This document shows positions 3,244-55,403 of a stretch of 64,000 nt of DNA, in pieces. Each line of letters opens with the position of its first letter. Position 1 is the stretch's first letter. The DNA lies in the IMG/VR virus record IMGVR_UViG_3300029286_001586, positions 1 through 64,000 of that record. One strand, given 5' to 3'. The notes beneath the pieces were generated by a model. That model saw only the letters and a program-made list of their open reading frames with translations. It made no database searches and was not told the DNA's origin. This DNA comes from a virus. The position numbers and the translations under genes were made by a program.

Positions 3244-4518
3244 ATGAATAGACCTAAGATATTATGGATTTCCGACATCCTAGCGAAAACAGGTTTTGGG
3301 GTTGCTGCTGAAAACAATCTGAAGTATCTTCAGACTAAATATGACATAGCTGCTGCGGGTTGGAATTTCAATCCCGCAGACAAACACAGAAGACCATGGC
3401 AATGTTATTATGTTCCGAAGCAGCCAAACCCAGAACTAGGTATTACTTCCAGAAATATTTTAGAGACTCTTTATCCAATTATTGAAAAAGAAAAACCTGA
3501 CGCCATAGTAGCTTTTGCTGACCCCTGGGACTTCTTTTATGTTTCAGACGAATTCGCTGACAATGATGGTCAAGTATATTTAGGAATAAGAAAAAGATTC
3601 CCAGATATAAAAATATTTGGATATCTTACTGCTGATGCAACTCCGCTTCCAACTTATCTCAGACGCAATCTTATGTTTTATGATGCTATTGCAGTACCTA
3701 GTGAGTTCTCAAAAACAGCATTACAAATACTGCTTCCTAATACTCCAATAACAGTTATCTATCACGGCATTGACTCTGACATATTTAAAAAAATCCACCC
3801 AGAGATAGTTAATAATTGGAAAAAACAAATAGGAATTGAAGGAAAATTTGTTGTAGGATTTAATGGCAGAAATCAGTTTAGAAAAAACATACCTGGACTT
3901 TTAAGAACCTTTAAAGAATTTAGTGATAGTCACCCAGATGCAGTTCTTTTATTTCTTACTGATATTGATGCTGCTACTGCGGTGAATGATGTTAAGCGTT
4001 TAATTAATCGTATGGGTCTTACTGGTAAAGTAATTTGTCCAGAGGCGTTTGGACCGAAAGCAAATGTTGCTGATGAAAAAATGTCTTTGTATTATAACTG
4101 CATGGATGTTTATTTGACTCTTTCTTTTGCAGAAGGATTTGGATGTCCTATTCTTGAAGCTATGGCTTGCGGTGTTCCTGTTGTGACAACAGGGTATTCT
4201 GCTCCAGTTGAATTAATTGAAAAATCTGGGGGCGGAGTTCTTGTTGATGTTGCTGGTTGGGTCAATGAAAAAAGCACAGACAGAAATTTTGCGATAGCAA
4301 ATGAAACTCAGGCAGCAAACTACTTACACGCTTTATACAGCAATCCTGATTTGAGGACGAAAGTCGGAGAGAAAGCAAGGCTCTGGGCTTCTAAACAAAC
4401 ATGGTTAAAGAGCGGTAAAGAGTTCGATGCGTTCCTTGCAGAGTCGCTCAAAAAACCAAAAATAGATTTCTTTCCTATTTCGTATGGTATTGAAGTAATT
4501 GATAAGGATGTAATTTAA
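3244..4518 (+). CDS. Glycosyltransferase family 4 (GT-B fold)
   Basis: 424 aa, length normal for a GT4 enzyme. The N-terminal Rossmann domain starts with the K-x-x-W-I-S...T-G-F-G-V-A glycine loop; the C-terminal domain has the donor-binding F-N-G-R-N-Q-x-R-K-N segment (about residue 205) and the E-G-F-G...E-A-M-A-C-G motif (about residues 295-310) that holds the nucleotide sugar. Transfers a sugar from an activated donor to an unknown acceptor. First gene of an island of six sugar/methyl-transfer genes; its stop overlaps the next ATG. Acceptor may be virion protein or host glycan (inference). Confidence 0.88.
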   Translation: MNRPKILWISDILAKTGFGVAAENNLKYLQTKYDIAAAGWNFNPADKHRRPWQCYYVPKQPNPELGITSRNILETLYPIIEKEKPDAIVAFADPWDFFYVSDEFADNDGQVYLGIRKRFPDIKIFGYLTADATPLPTYLRRNLMFYDAIAVPSEFSKTALQILLPNTPITVIYHGIDSDIFKKIHPEIVNNWKKQIGIEGKFVVGFNGRNQFRKNIPGLLRTFKEFSDSHPDAVLLFLTDIDAATAVNDVKRLINRMGLTGKVICPEAFGPKANVADEKMSLYYNCMDVYLTLSFAEGFGCPILEAMACGVPVVTTGYSAPVELIEKSGGGVLVDVAGWVNEKSTDRNFAIANETQAANYLHALYSNPDLRTKVGEKARLWASKQTWLKSGKEFDAFLAESLKKPKIDFFPISYGIEVIDKDVI

Positions 4519-6431
4519 TGTCACATGTCTCAATTTGCGTCCCTTATATAGACAAGATTGATATACTAAAAAACACTATTAGTTCCATAAGAAATAAGAC
4601 TGGTGATACAGCGAAGTATAAAATATTTCTCATGGATAACGGTTCAGAAAAACAAGTAGGAGCAGGTGATGGAAACTTGGTGGTTATTAATTCTCCAGAG
4701 AATCTTGGGTTTGGCAGAGCGTTAAATCTTTTAATTACAGAGGCTCTAAAAGAAAATCCAGATACACATATTTTGGTTTGTAATGATGATATAGAGATAC
4801 TTCAATTAGGATGGCTAGATAGACTTGTTGATTGTGTTGAGACCTATCCCAAAGCTGGTGTCGTAGGTCCAGTATGTCTATATCCGAATGGTACTGTTCA
4901 ACATGCAGGAGCATATATCAACAGGATTTTTACGGGGCAGCACTTTCAAGAAATTCCAAAAGAAAGAAAAGAATTTGAGTACATACCATTTGTTGTAGTG
5001 CTTCTTCATAACAATCTTGTTAAAGATTTAATTAAAGCACAGGGAAGTGTTTTTGACGACAATATTAAAAAGGCATATAGTGAGGATGTTGACGTATGTT
5101 ATAGTGCAAGGAAATATGGTTATGTTTGTGTTCTTGAACCGACGGTAAGGATTGTACATCTTGAAGGTACGTCGCAGAAAATTGGAGTTCTTGGAAATAG
5201 AGCAAATATTTCAGAACTTCAAAATACGAACAAAGAATATGTTGCGAAAAAGTGGGAAGACTATGATTCTACCGAGGATAAGAAATATAAAGTTTGTTTT
5301 GTGTCCAGGCTCGCAGGAAATTTGAGCTACCAACAAGTGCTTAAAAACATTGCCCCAAGACTAGACAAAGATAACGAATTTGATGTGTCGCTTCTTCCAG
5401 AGGAAACCGTCTATTCTCCAGAACATCTTCCTGCGGATTGGGAACTTAGAAAACTCAGACAGAAACCCTTTGATGAAAAAAGAATTTGTATCAGGTATTC
5501 AGAAGGTCAGTTTGGATATCTTGCTTATAGCAGGGATGTAATTTACACGACTCTCGAAACATGGGGAACGCATATTCCTTTTGAGTGGAAAAATAATATA
5601 AACAAATTTAAACAATGTTGGGTAACTTGTAATAGAGTGAAAGATGTGTTTCAAGCATCTGGTATTACGATACCAATTAAAGTAGTTCCGCATGGTATTG
5701 ATTTTAAACTTTGGGATTACAATGTTGAACCTTATCACAATCCTCATCTTCCAAAGTTCTTATTTTTTATGAATGACATGTATGGTTCGAGAAAGAATAT
5801 GGATATTGTTGTTAAAGCGTTCTGTGAGATTTTTAAGGACAACAAAGAAGTCGGTTTATTTATTCAGAGTTCTGGATTAGTAACTCAACTCGAACAGATT
5901 GGTTATGCAGAAGGAGTTGAAAGAAATTTAGGGACACAATACTTTAAAACAAAAGTCATAACTAGATGGCTTTCAAATAATGGATGGGATGGCAGAACTC
6001 AGATATTTGTTTTTGATGATTGGGTGTCACAGGAAACTCTTGTTAAATTGTATGCAAGAATGAGTGTTGTTATCTGTATGGGCAATGAAGGTTTTGGGCT
6101 TGTGGGTTTACAAAGCGCAGCCATGAAGAAACCACTTATACATTTGAACGAGGGCGGATTTTTAGAATACTGTCCTCCGTCTATGACATATCCCGTTGAA
6201 GTCGGTGATTATGTTCCTTCCCGTCAGATGTGGATAATGCAGCAATACATAAATGGTTTGTGGGCAGAACCTAATTACGAGAGTCTTAAAAAACAGATGC
6301 AATTTGTATATGAACAAACTTCAGCAAACGAAACTAACGCCGAATCATTATATAATTATGTCAGGGAAAATTTTACTTGGGATAAAGTAATAGAAGGAAT
6401 AAAGGAAAATATTAAATGTTTGGATTCTTAG
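4518..6431 (+). CDS. Bifunctional GT2-GT4 glycosyltransferase
   Basis: 637 aa, two enzymes in one chain. Residues 1-about 230 are a GT2 (GT-A) domain: S-I-C-V-P-Y opening, N-L-G-F-G-R-A-L-N motif, D-D-I metal site (N-D-D-I-E-I), and an S-E-D-V-D acidic catalytic segment. From about 255 on there is a GT4-like domain with V-P-H-G-I-D and G-N-E-G-F-G-L-V-G-L-Q-S-A motifs. Two sugars could be added in sequence. Ends with TAG overlapping the next gene by 16 bases. Confidence 0.85.
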   Translation: MSHVSICVPYIDKIDILKNTISSIRNKTGDTAKYKIFLMDNGSEKQVGAGDGNLVVINSPENLGFGRALNLLITEALKENPDTHILVCNDDIEILQLGWLDRLVDCVETYPKAGVVGPVCLYPNGTVQHAGAYINRIFTGQHFQEIPKERKEFEYIPFVVVLLHNNLVKDLIKAQGSVFDDNIKKAYSEDVDVCYSARKYGYVCVLEPTVRIVHLEGTSQKIGVLGNRANISELQNTNKEYVAKKWEDYDSTEDKKYKVCFVSRLAGNLSYQQVLKNIAPRLDKDNEFDVSLLPEETVYSPEHLPADWELRKLRQKPFDEKRICIRYSEGQFGYLAYSRDVIYTTLETWGTHIPFEWKNNINKFKQCWVTCNRVKDVFQASGITIPIKVVPHGIDFKLWDYNVEPYHNPHLPKFLFFMNDMYGSRKNMDIVVKAFCEIFKDNKEVGLFIQSSGLVTQLEQIGYAEGVERNLGTQYFKTKVITRWLSNNGWDGRTQIFVFDDWVSQETLVKLYARMSVVICMGNEGFGLVGLQSAAMKKPLIHLNEGGFLEYCPPSMTYPVEVGDYVPSRQMWIMQQYINGLWAEPNYESLKKQMQFVYEQTSANETNAESLYNYVRENFTWDKVIEGIKENIKCLDS

Positions 6432-49870: not shown

Positions 49871-50049
49871 TTATTTCCTCTCATCCTATAAATAACACTG
49901 GCTTGTTCTTCTAATTCAACAAGATATTTGCTTTGCTGCTTGTTAAATCCAATGCTCTCAAGAAAATTTCTCCTTTTAACAACAACTTTTTGATGCCTTC
50001 TGTCGCTTTCGATTCTATCAGATTCGTAGCAACTATCATAATGTCCCAT
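49861..50049 (-). CDS. Hypothetical protein
   Basis: 62 aa from ATG 50049, overlapping the stop of the primase gene as TAATG and with AGGAGG upstream. Charged Arg/Ser/Asp N-terminus, R-R-N-F-L-E-S-I-G-F-N-K-Q-Q-S-K-Y-L helix. Unknown, possibly DNA-binding. Confidence 0.55.
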   Translation of the reverse strand: MGHYDSCYESDRIESDRRHQKVVVKRRNFLESIGFNKQQSKYLVELEEQASVIYRMRGNKCN

Positions 50050-52742
50050 TATTTTCCTCCTTTTAATTTGCATTTATCACTACACTTAATTTTCCATCCC
50101 AAACTTTTTATGAACGGACAAGCAAAGTGGTAAGCATCTCCGCTATAAACGGTTTTTACACAACTTTCAAGACCAAGTAAAAGATTTCCGTTCCTAGTAG
50201 ATGTTAATTTGGGGTCAATATTCTGGGTCCACTTAGTCAATAATTCAACACAGTCTTCTTCAGATACTTCCTGGTCTTTGTAGTACCCCGCCAAAACAAG
50301 AGTTGCCCTGTTTCTCGAACCCTTGACTTTTATTCCGTTCTCCAGTAAGTCCTTGACACAAACAGGAACGTAATCAGGTACGATTTTAAGCGTTGTTCTT
50401 TTATATTCTTTGGTCTTGTAATCTCTGAGCATATCATTAGCCCACTTTTCAGCCACGTCTATTTTAGACGCTACTCCAATTTTCTCCTTTTTCTTGGGCG
50501 AAACTGCGAGAGCCAAAATGTTGGTAATGTCTTCTCCTATCATTTTAATAGGAATAGTTATTTTAAATAGCCCCGATTTCATATTGGGGGTATTTTGAAT
50601 CCTGAGCATCTTTCTATTACCTGTTGCATTACAAAGGGTCTGTAACTTGAATTTGGTTCTTAATTTATTGTGGATATGTTCTATTTTCTTATGAAGGTCT
50701 GAAGATGGCTTAAAACCAAACACAGCTTCATCAACTATAATATGGAAACCCTTTGAATTTCCGCACCACATAGGTTTTCCGTTTCTTCTAACAAATATTA
50801 CACCAGTAGAAACTTCGCAACAATATACATTGTCATTATAAGGAACAAGTCCATATCCCCATCCAGTTCCAAGCGTGTTTTTTATATTATATTGATGTTT
50901 TGTTGATTTATTATAGGTTACTAACCACATATTTCCATCTTTTGTGACATTAGAAGCATATCCTAATCGCAAACATAGTTCATTTATATTATCAGCTAGT
51001 TCTTTTTGTATTCCTGGATATAAAACATTTTTGTTTTTGTCTCCATCCCCTAAATAAAAAGCATCGAAAAGTATTTTGAGCTGTCTTTTGGAAAGATTTA
51101 ATATATTTCTATCTATTTTTTTACACAAAACATTACAAAGCTGTTTATCATAAATCATTAAATAATTACAACCATTCGGATGCTTACTATATTTTACTTT
51201 ACTTCCAAAAATTCTTTTGGCTGAATTCCAAATTTTTTTAAAATTTTTCGTGTCTTTTTGACATATTGTTATTTCACAACTTCCTGCGTTTTTCCCTCTC
51301 TTACTTTTTCTCTTTCTGCTATATCCTTCGGATAACCAATATCCCAAAAATTCAAGCCAATCATCCATTTTAATTTTTTTGGCTGGTATTTTATATTTAA
51401 TTTTTCCTCCCCCGCATATTTTATAAGTTTCGGGCAAAACAAAATATTTTTGTTCTTTCCCTGTATGTTCTATTCCTCTATTAAAAATTAAATTAGACCT
51501 ATTTATTAGTTCTTTTATTGGTCGAAGTTCAAATTCTTTTTTATTATCTTTTTGGATTTGATGGTACATATTATGGTCTGGAGTAACTAGAATATCTATA
51601 AAACTAGATTTAAGATTATATAAATGTCCTTTGTATGGGAATTTTTGTATTGTTTGGGGGTATTCGTATTTTGTTGTGTTTTTGTGTTTAACAGCAACTT
51701 TATCTGTCGTTTGTAAATCTTTAAAATATTTCCACCCATTTTGAGTTAAAATTTCTGTGTCTTTGCTATAACATCCAGAAAATGATAGGTGTATCATATT
51801 ATCGGGAATATTGAGTCTAAACAGTTCATCTAGTATGTAGATAGCTTCTGCTTGTGCCTGACTTAAATCATCGACATCATCAACATCGAGGTCAAAGAAC
51901 AAGGGCATGAGGAAATCTTCGCCATATACTTTTTCAGCGTTCCTGAATTTCTGGACTGACATATATAACTCAGACCCACTATGTTCCCTAACAAAATGAG
52001 GAATTTGATTAGTCTTTAGTCTTAACCATTTACTCCACTTTTTCTCATTTTCAGAGTTCATGTAGGAGAAACATACTTCTTTATACATATAGTCTTTATT
52101 GTCTATTTCGTCCTGGGGCTTAGAAAACAGAGTATAAAACAAATCATCACTAAGAAGCGGTTTAATCCTGTCAGTGAACGCTTTTAGTCTTTCAAGCAAG
52201 TATTCAATATCGTAGTCTTCGGCATAGTCTTCCTTCAATTTGCATATCTTTTTCTTCTCGGTCGGCTTTGCAAAGTAGTAACCAACTTTGTTCCCAATCG
52301 GCACATTCTTATTTTTAGCAAGCAATACTTCATAAACTTGGTCTGATTTTATCTTATTAGCCTGATATGCGTTTAGTGAGCGATTTATTTCCCTGTGCTG
52401 AATGAATTCATTGAGTTCCATTTTACCACTCATGATAAGTTCTCTGAGAGTGAGATATCGTTCTCTTATTTTGTCATATTCCTTATTAAGAATGTCCCAA
52501 ATAGAGTCCCTGATAAAATCTTTACCAAACTTTTCAATCCCCCTGCTTCTAAAACTTACACCAGACATTTTAATCTTATTATCTTCAGTAACACGAATGT
52601 AATTCTTAGGCAAAATATTACAAAAGAATTTATAGTAAGCTAGGTCACAGTCTATTCCTTTTGGTAAAAAAGCGTTTATCTCTTTAAGCAAAGATTCGCC
52701 CTCTAGTTTATACTTTTTTATGTTTTTTTCTGTATTCAGCAT
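50049..52742 (-). CDS. DNA polymerase thumb fused to archaeo-eukaryotic primase, with intein
   Basis: 897 aa precursor, 558 after intein removal. Residues 1-about 210 match the family B polymerase palm-end/thumb (L-L-K-E-I-N-A-F-L-P-K-G; I-R-V-T-E-D-N-K-I; I-Q-H-R-E-I-N-R-S-L; V-P-I-G-N-K-V-G-Y-Y). Then an AEP primase: D-L-D-V-D-D (284-289), S-G-S-K-G-F-H (with the intein cut between G323 and S663), M-L-R-I-Q-N-T-P (R714), and C861/C875/C887/C891, a possible Fe-S/zinc end. It lies in the same frame as the upstream polymerase gene, separated only by TAG and 13 codons; a weak ribosome site precedes its ATG. Confidence 0.88.
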   Translation of the reverse strand: MLNTEKNIKKYKLEGESLLKEINAFLPKGIDCDLAYYKFFCNILPKNYIRVTEDNKIKMSGVSFRSRGIEKFGKDFIRDSIWDILNKEYDKIRERYLTLRELIMSGKMELNEFIQHREINRSLNAYQANKIKSDQVYEVLLAKNKNVPIGNKVGYYFAKPTEKKKICKLKEDYAEDYDIEYLLERLKAFTDRIKPLLSDDLFYTLFSKPQDEIDNKDYMYKEVCFSYMNSENEKKWSKWLRLKTNQIPHFVREHSGSELYMSVQKFRNAEKVYGEDFLMPLFFDLDVDDVDDLSQAQAEAIYILDELFRLNIPDNMIHLSFSGCYSKDTEILTQNGWKYFKDLQTTDKVAVKHKNTTKYEYPQTIQKFPYKGHLYNLKSSFIDILVTPDHNMYHQIQKDNKKEFELRPIKELINRSNLIFNRGIEHTGKEQKYFVLPETYKICGGGKIKYKIPAKKIKMDDWLEFLGYWLSEGYSRKRKSKRGKNAGSCEITICQKDTKNFKKIWNSAKRIFGSKVKYSKHPNGCNYLMIYDKQLCNVLCKKIDRNILNLSKRQLKILFDAFYLGDGDKNKNVLYPGIQKELADNINELCLRLGYASNVTKDGNMWLVTYNKSTKHQYNIKNTLGTGWGYGLVPYNDNVYCCEVSTGVIFVRRNGKPMWCGNSKGFHIIVDEAVFGFKPSSDLHKKIEHIHNKLRTKFKLQTLCNATGNRKMLRIQNTPNMKSGLFKITIPIKMIGEDITNILALAVSPKKKEKIGVASKIDVAEKWANDMLRDYKTKEYKRTTLKIVPDYVPVCVKDLLENGIKVKGSRNRATLVLAGYYKDQEVSEEDCVELLTKWTQNIDPKLTSTRNGNLLLGLESCVKTVYSGDAYHFACPFIKSLGWKIKCSDKCKLKGGK
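50757..51773 (-). mobile_element. Intein with LAGLIDADG-type endonuclease (in primase)
   Basis: 339 aa, precursor residues 324-662. Starts with Cys (C-Y-S-K-D-T-E-I), block B D-I-L-V-T-P-D-H-N, endonuclease motifs L-G-Y-W-L-S-E-G and F-Y-L-G-D-G-D, and ends in C-G-N before Ser+1. The next-to-last residue is Gly rather than the usual His. Placed exactly inside the S-G-S-K-G-F-H primase motif, so splicing is needed for activity. Confidence 0.9.
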
Positions 52743-52781
52743 GATATTGCTTATACCTTTTAAGTTGTTTTTTATTTGGAA

Positions 52782-54308
52782 CTATTTTTCCTGTGATTGC
52801 CATGATTCTTTTGTTATATATACCCCGTCCGTGTCCCGCTCCAGTGTTATATATCCTTTCTTTGTTAGAAAATCGCACATTGTTTGCAGCGTTTCTCGTC
52901 CTATCTTTGTGACTCTGCTTGCTTCTTCCATGTCGTTCCATTGAAACACATTACTGCCCAACAGTCCATAGAGTGAGTTGATTAATATTTTAGTTGATTG
53001 TTCCTCTGCTTTATATCTCTCTAGTCCTGTTTCTTTGGCTTGCGCTTTCATACTGAATCTTAGGTCTGTAAGAGTTTTAAGCAGTTTAGGAAACACTTTG
53101 AATTTGTCTGATTTGGGACAGACATTATAATTCAACATGACTGATGGATAAAGCGAATTAACATCTAAATGATAGACATGTTCAAATATTCCTCTCTGTT
53201 CGGCTCCGACCATAGCACCTTCAAAATCTATTTTTTCCTGCTTGATAGGGATTGCATGTCCTTGTCTGTAATATTCCCTGACAAACATTCCTGTCATTTT
53301 CGTGGAAGAACTAGCAATACACACTTTCTCATAGTTCATAGGAAGCATTTGTGTCTGGTAGAAGTCTTTTTGTGTCAGTAATTTTGATAGATGGTCAACT
53401 GCCAAACAATCGTCCATACAATGCTTTATAATCAACTGCTTATCTGTTTTAAGAAATTCTGCTATCTTAGTTTTATCAATATTCATATCCTCGAACTTCT
53501 TACCAAATCGCTCTGATACATCATCGAGTTTATATGTTTCAAGTTCTCTGTAAATAGCATCCCAGGCACGAACAGAATAATATAGGTCAACACAATGCCG
53601 ACCCCAAATCTTAGGGACCATTATTTCCACGCTTTGATTATCACCCATACGAATATGGGTCTGGAACATATACATGTCGGAATTATTGCGTCCGATATTC
53701 GGTCTGATATCATGAACTGCTGCTCTATTCATGAGTAATTGAAAGTCGAAACTGAATCCATTATAGCTTTCAATAACATCAGGATTCAATCTCTTAATAA
53801 CTTCAAAAAAATGCTCGATGATAAAATTCTCATCACCGATTATGTAATCGCTTTTATCTCCGCAAGTATAACAGATAATTAATATCTCTGAATCAGTAAG
53901 CGATAGACCCGTTGACTCAATATTGAATTGTAAGCGTTTCAGGTCTTCATATTCCATTCCCTTGAATAGAGTCTTTCCTGTTTGAATCATGTACTGAGTA
54001 TTCATATCCGAAATTGTAAAGTGTTGGGGTTGTGCCAAACCATTGTTCTGTCTCAATGTTTTCATCAGGGGAAAAAACAATCGGGGTTCAATATAAGCCA
54101 AGATGTTATATCCGTCTCCCTGAAGTTCTTCATATTCTTTTTGTCCAATACGACTTAGCTGATTTTTAGAAGAAAGATAAAGAAATGGCTTAAACGCTTC
54201 TTTAAAAGTTTTACCATTCCTAAAGATAGTAGTTGCAGTTCCATTATTTACTTCAATAGATACTATATCCGTGGTCTCATTTTTTCCGTATATTAAAATA
54301 TCGTTCAG
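52782..54308 (-). CDS. Family B DNA polymerase, N-terminal part (stops after motif C)
   Basis: 508 aa from a probable CTG at 54308, because no ATG/GTG/TTG exists in the first 69 codons; TGGAG precedes it and it overlaps the upstream stop as CTGA. Exonuclease motifs are decayed: Exo I N-I-E (N129 in place of D), Exo II Y-N-G-F-S-F-D normal, Exo III H-C-M-D-D (H296 for Tyr). Polymerase motifs: D-V-N-S-L-Y-P-S (D382), K-I-L-I-N-S-L-Y-G, D-T-D-G-V-Y-I (D492, D494). TAG at 52782 then same-frame continuation into the thumb-primase gene. Confidence 0.88.
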   Translation of the reverse strand: MNDILIYGKNETTDIVSIEVNNGTATTIFRNGKTFKEAFKPFLYLSSKNQLSRIGQKEYEELQGDGYNILAYIEPRLFFPLMKTLRQNNGLAQPQHFTISDMNTQYMIQTGKTLFKGMEYEDLKRLQFNIESTGLSLTDSEILIICYTCGDKSDYIIGDENFIIEHFFEVIKRLNPDVIESYNGFSFDFQLLMNRAAVHDIRPNIGRNNSDMYMFQTHIRMGDNQSVEIMVPKIWGRHCVDLYYSVRAWDAIYRELETYKLDDVSERFGKKFEDMNIDKTKIAEFLKTDKQLIIKHCMDDCLAVDHLSKLLTQKDFYQTQMLPMNYEKVCIASSSTKMTGMFVREYYRQGHAIPIKQEKIDFEGAMVGAEQRGIFEHVYHLDVNSLYPSVMLNYNVCPKSDKFKVFPKLLKTLTDLRFSMKAQAKETGLERYKAEEQSTKILINSLYGLLGSNVFQWNDMEEASRVTKIGRETLQTMCDFLTKKGYITLERDTDGVYITKESWQSQEK

Positions 54309-54632: not shown

Positions 54633-55403
54633 CTACAAATTAGTCGATGGTTTTAATATCTGGAGATTTTTACCGACTTTGCACCAACCACCACAGTCCT
54701 GACATTGCGCTCTCTTATATTTCGTGGTGGCATTAATTGAAAATCCTCTTGATTGCATATTACCAGACCCGCACTTGGGACATACTAATTTATTAGTGTA
54801 CATTCCTAAATTTGGGTGAGTATTCATCCAGGGAAGAAGTCTGAGATATATCTTTTCAAGAAGAATAACATCATTTGCGTTATACTGCTTCATCTTTTTC
54901 CACGCTTCGAGTTTTCCAGCCATACAATCCAGCCATAACTTAAATCCGCCAGTTTCGACTTTAACTCCCAAATCTAAATACTTGCCGAGGTCATTTAAGC
55001 TGTTGCTATTAAAAGCAAAGTTTTTTTTTGCTACTATCTTAGTATCAACTGTTTTGAATGGGGCTGGAGGTTTCATTTTATGAAATGAAAATCTTGAATT
55101 ACTTTTTTTAATATCAAAATCTGCCCCGTTATGAGCAACTACAATATCTGCTTCATCAAAGAGCTTCCAAATGTCCTCTACCAACGCTTTATCGCTTTCT
55201 TTGTCTTTTTTATAAAGCGGATAATCACAGAGTCCTTTGGAAAACACTTTCTCTCCCAACCACTTCGCACTGAAACTCAAAATATGCCATTCGTCTTTAT
55301 TCTCAATAATATGGGTTTCCCAGGGATGCGACCACCAATAGCCGAGATTAGGACTGGTCTCAATATCGAATATCAATATTTTGGACTCATTATCTTTCTT
55401 CAT
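54633..55403 (-). CDS. DnaQ-like 3'-5' exonuclease (DEDDy) with zinc ribbon
   Basis: 256 aa. Exo I D-I-E-T (D13, E15), Exo II H-N-G-A-D-F-D (D95/D97 region), Exo III Y-N-A-N-D (Y174, D178). C-terminal zinc ribbon C208, C211, C234, C237. Because the polymerase has lost its own exonuclease residues, this protein probably provides proofreading or maturation of ends. Two genes upstream of the polymerase in the leftward direction. Confidence 0.85.
   Translation of the reverse strand: MKKDNESKILIFDIETSPNLGYWWSHPWETHIIENKDEWHILSFSAKWLGEKVFSKGLCDYPLYKKDKESDKALVEDIWKLFDEADIVVAHNGADFDIKKSNSRFSFHKMKPPAPFKTVDTKIVAKKNFAFNSNSLNDLGKYLDLGVKVETGGFKLWLDCMAGKLEAWKKMKQYNANDVILLEKIYLRLLPWMNTHPNLGMYTNKLVCPKCGSGNMQSRGFSINATTKYKRAQCQDCGGWCKVGKNLQILKPSTNL

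Follow-up and report, generated by a model that had tools for sequence, protein, structure and literature searches.

The window, a 64,000-nucleotide stretch of a 74,052-base virus contig (IMG/VR record IMGVR_UViG_3300029286_001586), carries a family B DNA polymerase (PolB) that is divided by an in-frame TAG into an N-piece and a C-piece. The C-piece continues in frame into an AEP primase that holds an intein, and a separate exonuclease gene lies just upstream of the polymerase in the same gene run. All of the following features are on the minus strand.

54633..55403, minus: separate 3'-5' exonuclease (PHROG 403, DNA polymerase exonuclease subunit, 2.6e-83)
52782..54308, minus: PolB N-piece, 508 aa from a CTG start, with the N-terminal and exonuclease-like domains, palm motifs A and C and fingers motif B
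53916-53933 and 53409-53423, minus: degenerate ExoI and ExoIII sites of the PolB
52782..52784, minus: in-frame stop TAG that ends the N-piece, codon 509
52704..52784, minus: insert or intercistronic segment of about 81 nt (27 codons) with the TAG as its first codon, missing from the closest relatives; boundaries approximate
52708..52803, minus: 31-codon ORF MAITGKIVPNKKQLKRYKQYHAEYRKKHKKV* in another frame, overlapping the end of the N-piece; coding-like codon usage
50049..52742, minus: C-piece if started at ATG 52742, 897 aa; end of the palm, thumb, and AEP primase with intein
50049..52691, minus: C-piece if started at TTG 52691, the start preferred by ribosome-binding site
52119..52703, minus: PolB C-terminal half (end of the palm, thumb), residues 536-730
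50052..52088, minus: AEP primase domain, residues 741-1419, fused in frame to the PolB C-half (PHROG 16345, primase)
50757..51773, minus: intein, 339 aa, in the primase between FSG and SKGFH; LAGLIDADG-like motifs

One polymerase domain on both sides of a TAG

The frame 54308-50049 comprises 1420 codons, of which 1418 are sense codons (1419 with the TAG); one stop is internal, and the last codon is TAA. The first-pass annotation had described a single frame broken by a lone TAG at 52784-52782, and this is what we found. As a control, we considered same-strand adjacent gene pairs: 13 of 52 lie in a common frame, and 11 of the 52 have a single stop between them and no other. Since so many neighbors share a frame with one stop, frame continuity is no evidence for readthrough, and we rejected it as evidence. 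What is informative here is the division of a single protein domain; the continuation of the frame is not.

TAG is the stop codon of 18 of 81 main-strand genes. We found no suppressor tRNA in the 74-kb record, in which the sole tRNA found is Met-CAT. General reassignment of TAG is thus unsupported, and we rejected whole-genome recoding, as had already been argued from TAG-ended genes before this analysis. An Rfam search of the region matched only the tRNA and hence no known intron family. Searches by DNA or by single proteins found no close relatives of the window. Elsewhere in the window, the C-terminal half of the gene at 4518-6431 (plus strand) is weakly similar to Streptomyces phage glycosyltransferases. 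Outside the window, an ORF at record positions 67653-68438 (L002 7653-8438, minus strand) has a long (VRAS/VWDS)n tandem repeat and is open in two frames across the repeat.

With the TAG read through, residues 1-735 form a complete family B polymerase. Motif A (DVNSLYPS, residue 382), motif B (INSLYG, 443) and motif C (DTDG, 492) precede the TAG, while the remaining palm, KNY (568) and the thumb come after it. The protein thus has the family's motifs A (DxxSLYP), B (KxxxNSxYG) and C (DTD) and the KNY palm-thumb continuation. The N-piece ends 11 codons past DTDGVY, about 16 codons 3' of motif C, and these positions confirm the first-pass claim that the polymerase part stops after motif C with the thumb downstream. 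The Pfam DNA_pol_B match covers residues 405-695 and spans the TAG in the read-through frame. An AlphaFold2 model of the read-through form had a pLDDT of 89 and a pTM of 0.86, and its best PDB match was KOD polymerase (E 5.5e-38).

By tblastn, the nearest proteins are Salinibacter phage polymerases (28% over residues 1-730). Contigs from Chlorobi, Armatimonadetes and Bacteroidetes genomes encode other related PolBs, with 27-32% identity. The PolB is unbroken in 80 of 80 bacterial relatives and in the nearest phage relatives. The gene apparently starts at CTG 54308, which overlaps the upstream stop (cTGA) and aligns with Met1 of the Salinibacter phage PolB; its Shine-Dalgarno energy of -5.9 is matched by 6% of internal start codons. 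The 74-kb record yielded no further DNA polymerase of families A, B or C, and the PolB is the phage's only recognizable DNA-copying enzyme.

The 3'-5' exonuclease residues DxE (ExoI), D (ExoII) and YxxxD (ExoIII) are common in family B but are not required for membership. In the window PolB, two of the catalytic residues are replaced (ExoI D129N and ExoIII Y296H); all 80 bacterial relatives keep the ExoI D and the ExoIII Y. The separate exonuclease has intact DIET, NGADFD and YNAND motifs and could supply proofreading in trans, a function that may have been transferred to it from the PolB. It also has a Cys-rich C-terminal end.

The segment that begins at the TAG

We built a profile of the loop after motif C from 102 relatives and scored 504 simulated in-frame deletions of the window sequence against it. 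The best deletion removed residues 509-535, starting exactly at the TAG, and raised the score from 42.9 to 53.3 bits. The boundary is approximate because neighboring deletions score within 1-2 bits. Consistently with an insert, the window has 71 residues between motif C and KNY; the 80 bacterial relatives have 45-48 (one 56), and the nearest phage relatives have 41-54. More distant T4-like relatives naturally have 63-65 residues here, so a long loop alone is no proof of an insert; we accordingly softened the statement that the insertion is unique to the window among all relatives. In the read-through model, the only internal stretch with pLDDT below 50 is at about residues 508-524, and the TAG is residue 509.

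Codon usage was compared with that of in-frame windows of matched length. The 13 codons from the TAG to ATG 52742 have non-coding-like usage (2.7th percentile of in-frame windows), and the 17 codons past ATG 52742 have coding-like usage (29th percentile). The codon score of the 31-codon off-frame ORF was equaled by 1 of 51 control off-frame ORFs. This ORF had no Pfam or PHROG match, and tblastn gave only E=5. Its similarity to one HNH protein and one endonuclease VII protein was no better than that of shuffles, which gives no support for an endonuclease remnant; that it is a remnant of some kind is possible and unproven. The segment of about 81 nt itself is plausibly the scar of mobile-element activity.

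Start, primase and intein of the second piece

Restart at ATG 52742, as proposed in the first-pass annotation, is possible, but the stronger ribosome-binding site is at TTG 52691. There, GAGGG lies 7 nt upstream, and the Shine-Dalgarno energy of -6.3 is equaled by 4.6% of internal start codons; the weaker Shine-Dalgarno sequence of ATG 52742 is equaled by 16%. Counting against the TTG start, a predicted hairpin of -12 kcal/mol covers it.

The downstream protein had been read as thumb plus primase. We found both, and also an intein inside the primase that had been missed. The primase has the DxD and SxH motifs of the AEP group (FDLD at 805 and SKGFH at 1185) and is 34% identical to the primase of Bacillus phage vB_BboS-125, with which it is contiguous once the intein is removed. 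The intein (CYSKDTE...CGN|SKGFH) lies within the primase catalytic motif, begins with Cys, ends with Asn and is followed by Ser, and it has an exact junction against the intein-free homologue. At its penultimate position, which is usually H, it has G (CGN|S). An intein is also present at motif C of a related PolB (L014 7944-11912, the same locus as L025).

Looking for the same join without a stop had been suggested as a check. In the bacterial and nearest phage relatives the PolB is whole. Fusion of a PolB to this primase was seen in none of the relatives examined; three of them (L027, L029 and L030) have a primase-like match some 2-4 kb upstream of the polymerase.

Splits in other phages and explanations of the break

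We scanned 42 PolB loci from IMG/VR phages of a more distant clade. Nine of these PolBs are split beside motif C, all at the same place (L186, which is the same as L031, and L188, L191, L196, L200, L208, L220, L222 and L224). Four of the nine gaps hold an endonuclease-like ORF: GIY-YIG in L188, HNH in L186, and I-HmuI-NUMOD-like in L220 and L222. The other five have other ORFs or none, and in two of these five the pieces overlap. In L031, the HNH-like ORF divides the PolB just 5' of motif C, and its 56%-identical sister L027 has an intact PolB. In a tree built from PolB N-parts, the split PolBs are dispersed, and four of them (L188, L196, L200 and L208) form a well-supported clade in which every member is split. 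Only one of these four has a recognizable endonuclease, which suggests that a split can persist without one.

The window PolB groups with the Salinibacter phage and Armatimonadetes PolBs (99/85, long branch). Its split is therefore most likely an event separate from those in the split clade. In both cases, the PolB is interrupted in the region of motif C, and both of the resulting ORFs are retained. In the split clade, the break is just 5' of motif C, which is on the C-piece, whereas in the window it is 3' of motif C. The split-clade C-pieces, at 225-286 aa, are too short for a primase, whereas the window C-piece carries one.

We think that the window most probably encodes a natural two-piece PolB, with the second piece restarted at TTG 52691 or ATG 52742. 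A stop and an intercistronic segment separate the two ORFs, which together make up a single PolB. Of the three options in the first-pass annotation, namely, readthrough, a natural two-piece polymerase and a recent stop, the second is now favored and the other two are less supported. It is favored because the TAG begins an insert of about 27 codons in a disordered loop, because the codons after the TAG are non-coding-like and those after ATG 52742 are coding-like, and because splits beside motif C recur in another phage clade. Polymerase motifs kept in both pieces, the lack of a second polymerase in the record and the Shine-Dalgarno sequence at TTG 52691 also speak for it. Counting against it, no close relative has the exact same split, the break is 3' of motif C and not 5' as in the split clade, and the off-frame ORF resembles endonucleases no more than its composition would predict.

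A recent nonsense mutation, or a base or assembly error, would mean that the polymerase-primase is, or recently was, continuous in the population. One base change is enough to make a TAG, the frame is otherwise open, and the source is a metagenomic-type virus record. However, this TAG stands at the start of a segment missing from the closest relatives and within the only internal disordered stretch, where a random error would be unlikely to fall across 735 codons. The 13 codons after it look non-coding, and a point error does not explain a lineage-specific 27-codon insert; we consider this explanation unlikely. Programmed or leaky readthrough in some passes would give the short N-piece plus a full polymerase-primase. 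It would fit with the open frame on both sides, with a small hairpin around the TAG (-3 kcal/mol) and with the placement of the insert in a loop that is predicted to be disordered and tolerant. Against this, a single stop between same-frame neighbors is common (the 11 pairs above), TAG is an ordinary stop in this phage, whose only detected tRNA is Met-CAT, and the first 13 codons past the TAG look non-coding. Because the short product would lack the thumb, polymerase could be supplied only by efficient readthrough. We regard it as improbable.

Translational bypassing, as in T4 gene 60, would take off at the AAA before the TAG and land at an AAA about 75 nt downstream. The UAG directly follows the take-off AAA, landing on the in-frame AAA at codon 534 would shorten the loop to 45 residues, the family norm, and a hairpin lies 3' of the landing site. 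But in a Lys-rich stretch a matching AAA near the right distance is likely by chance, and the AAA/AAA join scores 48.8 bits, compared with 53.3 for the best deletion. The take-off hairpin is weak, and the 75-nt gap is longer than 56 nt, above which T4 gene 60 constructs become less processive (PMC11194080). We regard bypassing as very improbable here.

If the PolB is made naturally as two pieces, the 508-aa N-piece would be translated from CTG 54308 to the TAG at 52782, and the C-piece separately from TTG 52691 or ATG 52742, as start sites and codon usage suggest. The C-piece would then lose its intein by splicing, and both pieces may fold together into one active polymerase, by analogy with 43A/43B of Aeromonas phage 25. 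More tentatively, we raise the possibility that polymerase forms only with the primase attached, through fusion of the C-half and fragment complementation, so that the primase would dock onto the replicative polymerase, with proofreading moved to the separate exonuclease gene.

A PolB split just after motif C, with its second piece fused to a primase, was seen in none of the relatives examined. From this comparison, breaks beside motif C seem to recur in phage PolBs, with or without a homing endonuclease, and to be able to persist when no endonuclease is present. The tolerance and retention of fragmentation in essential replication enzymes thereby become directly testable.

Known systems share parts of this arrangement. 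The PolB of Methanothermobacter thermautotrophicus consists of two polypeptides (PMC7776575), as in the window, but is an archaeal chromosomal enzyme. The GP55 replicase of lactococcal phage 1706 has an AEP-like primase and PolB sequence in one polypeptide (PMC12205980). Its order is helicase-primase-PolB with an intact phi29-like PolB, whereas in the window only the PolB C-half is joined, and it precedes the primase. Pseudomonas phage MIJ3 has a split PolB with a split intein and an HNH endonuclease (PMC6892783). There, too, the PolB occupies two ORFs, and a mobile element separates them, but protein splicing is thought to join the MIJ3 pieces, and we saw no intein halves at the window break. 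In Aeromonas phages 44RR2.8t and 25, gene 43 likewise encodes a family B replicative polymerase in two ORFs, and in phage 25 the 43A and 43B pieces copurify and polymerase activity is present (PMC2988022). The 44RR gene has a short untranslated intercistronic segment of about 49 nt, and the window has a similarly short segment. However, the 44RR break lies between motifs A and B and the window break after motif C, 43B has no primase fusion, and the window PolB is only distantly related to the T4 type.
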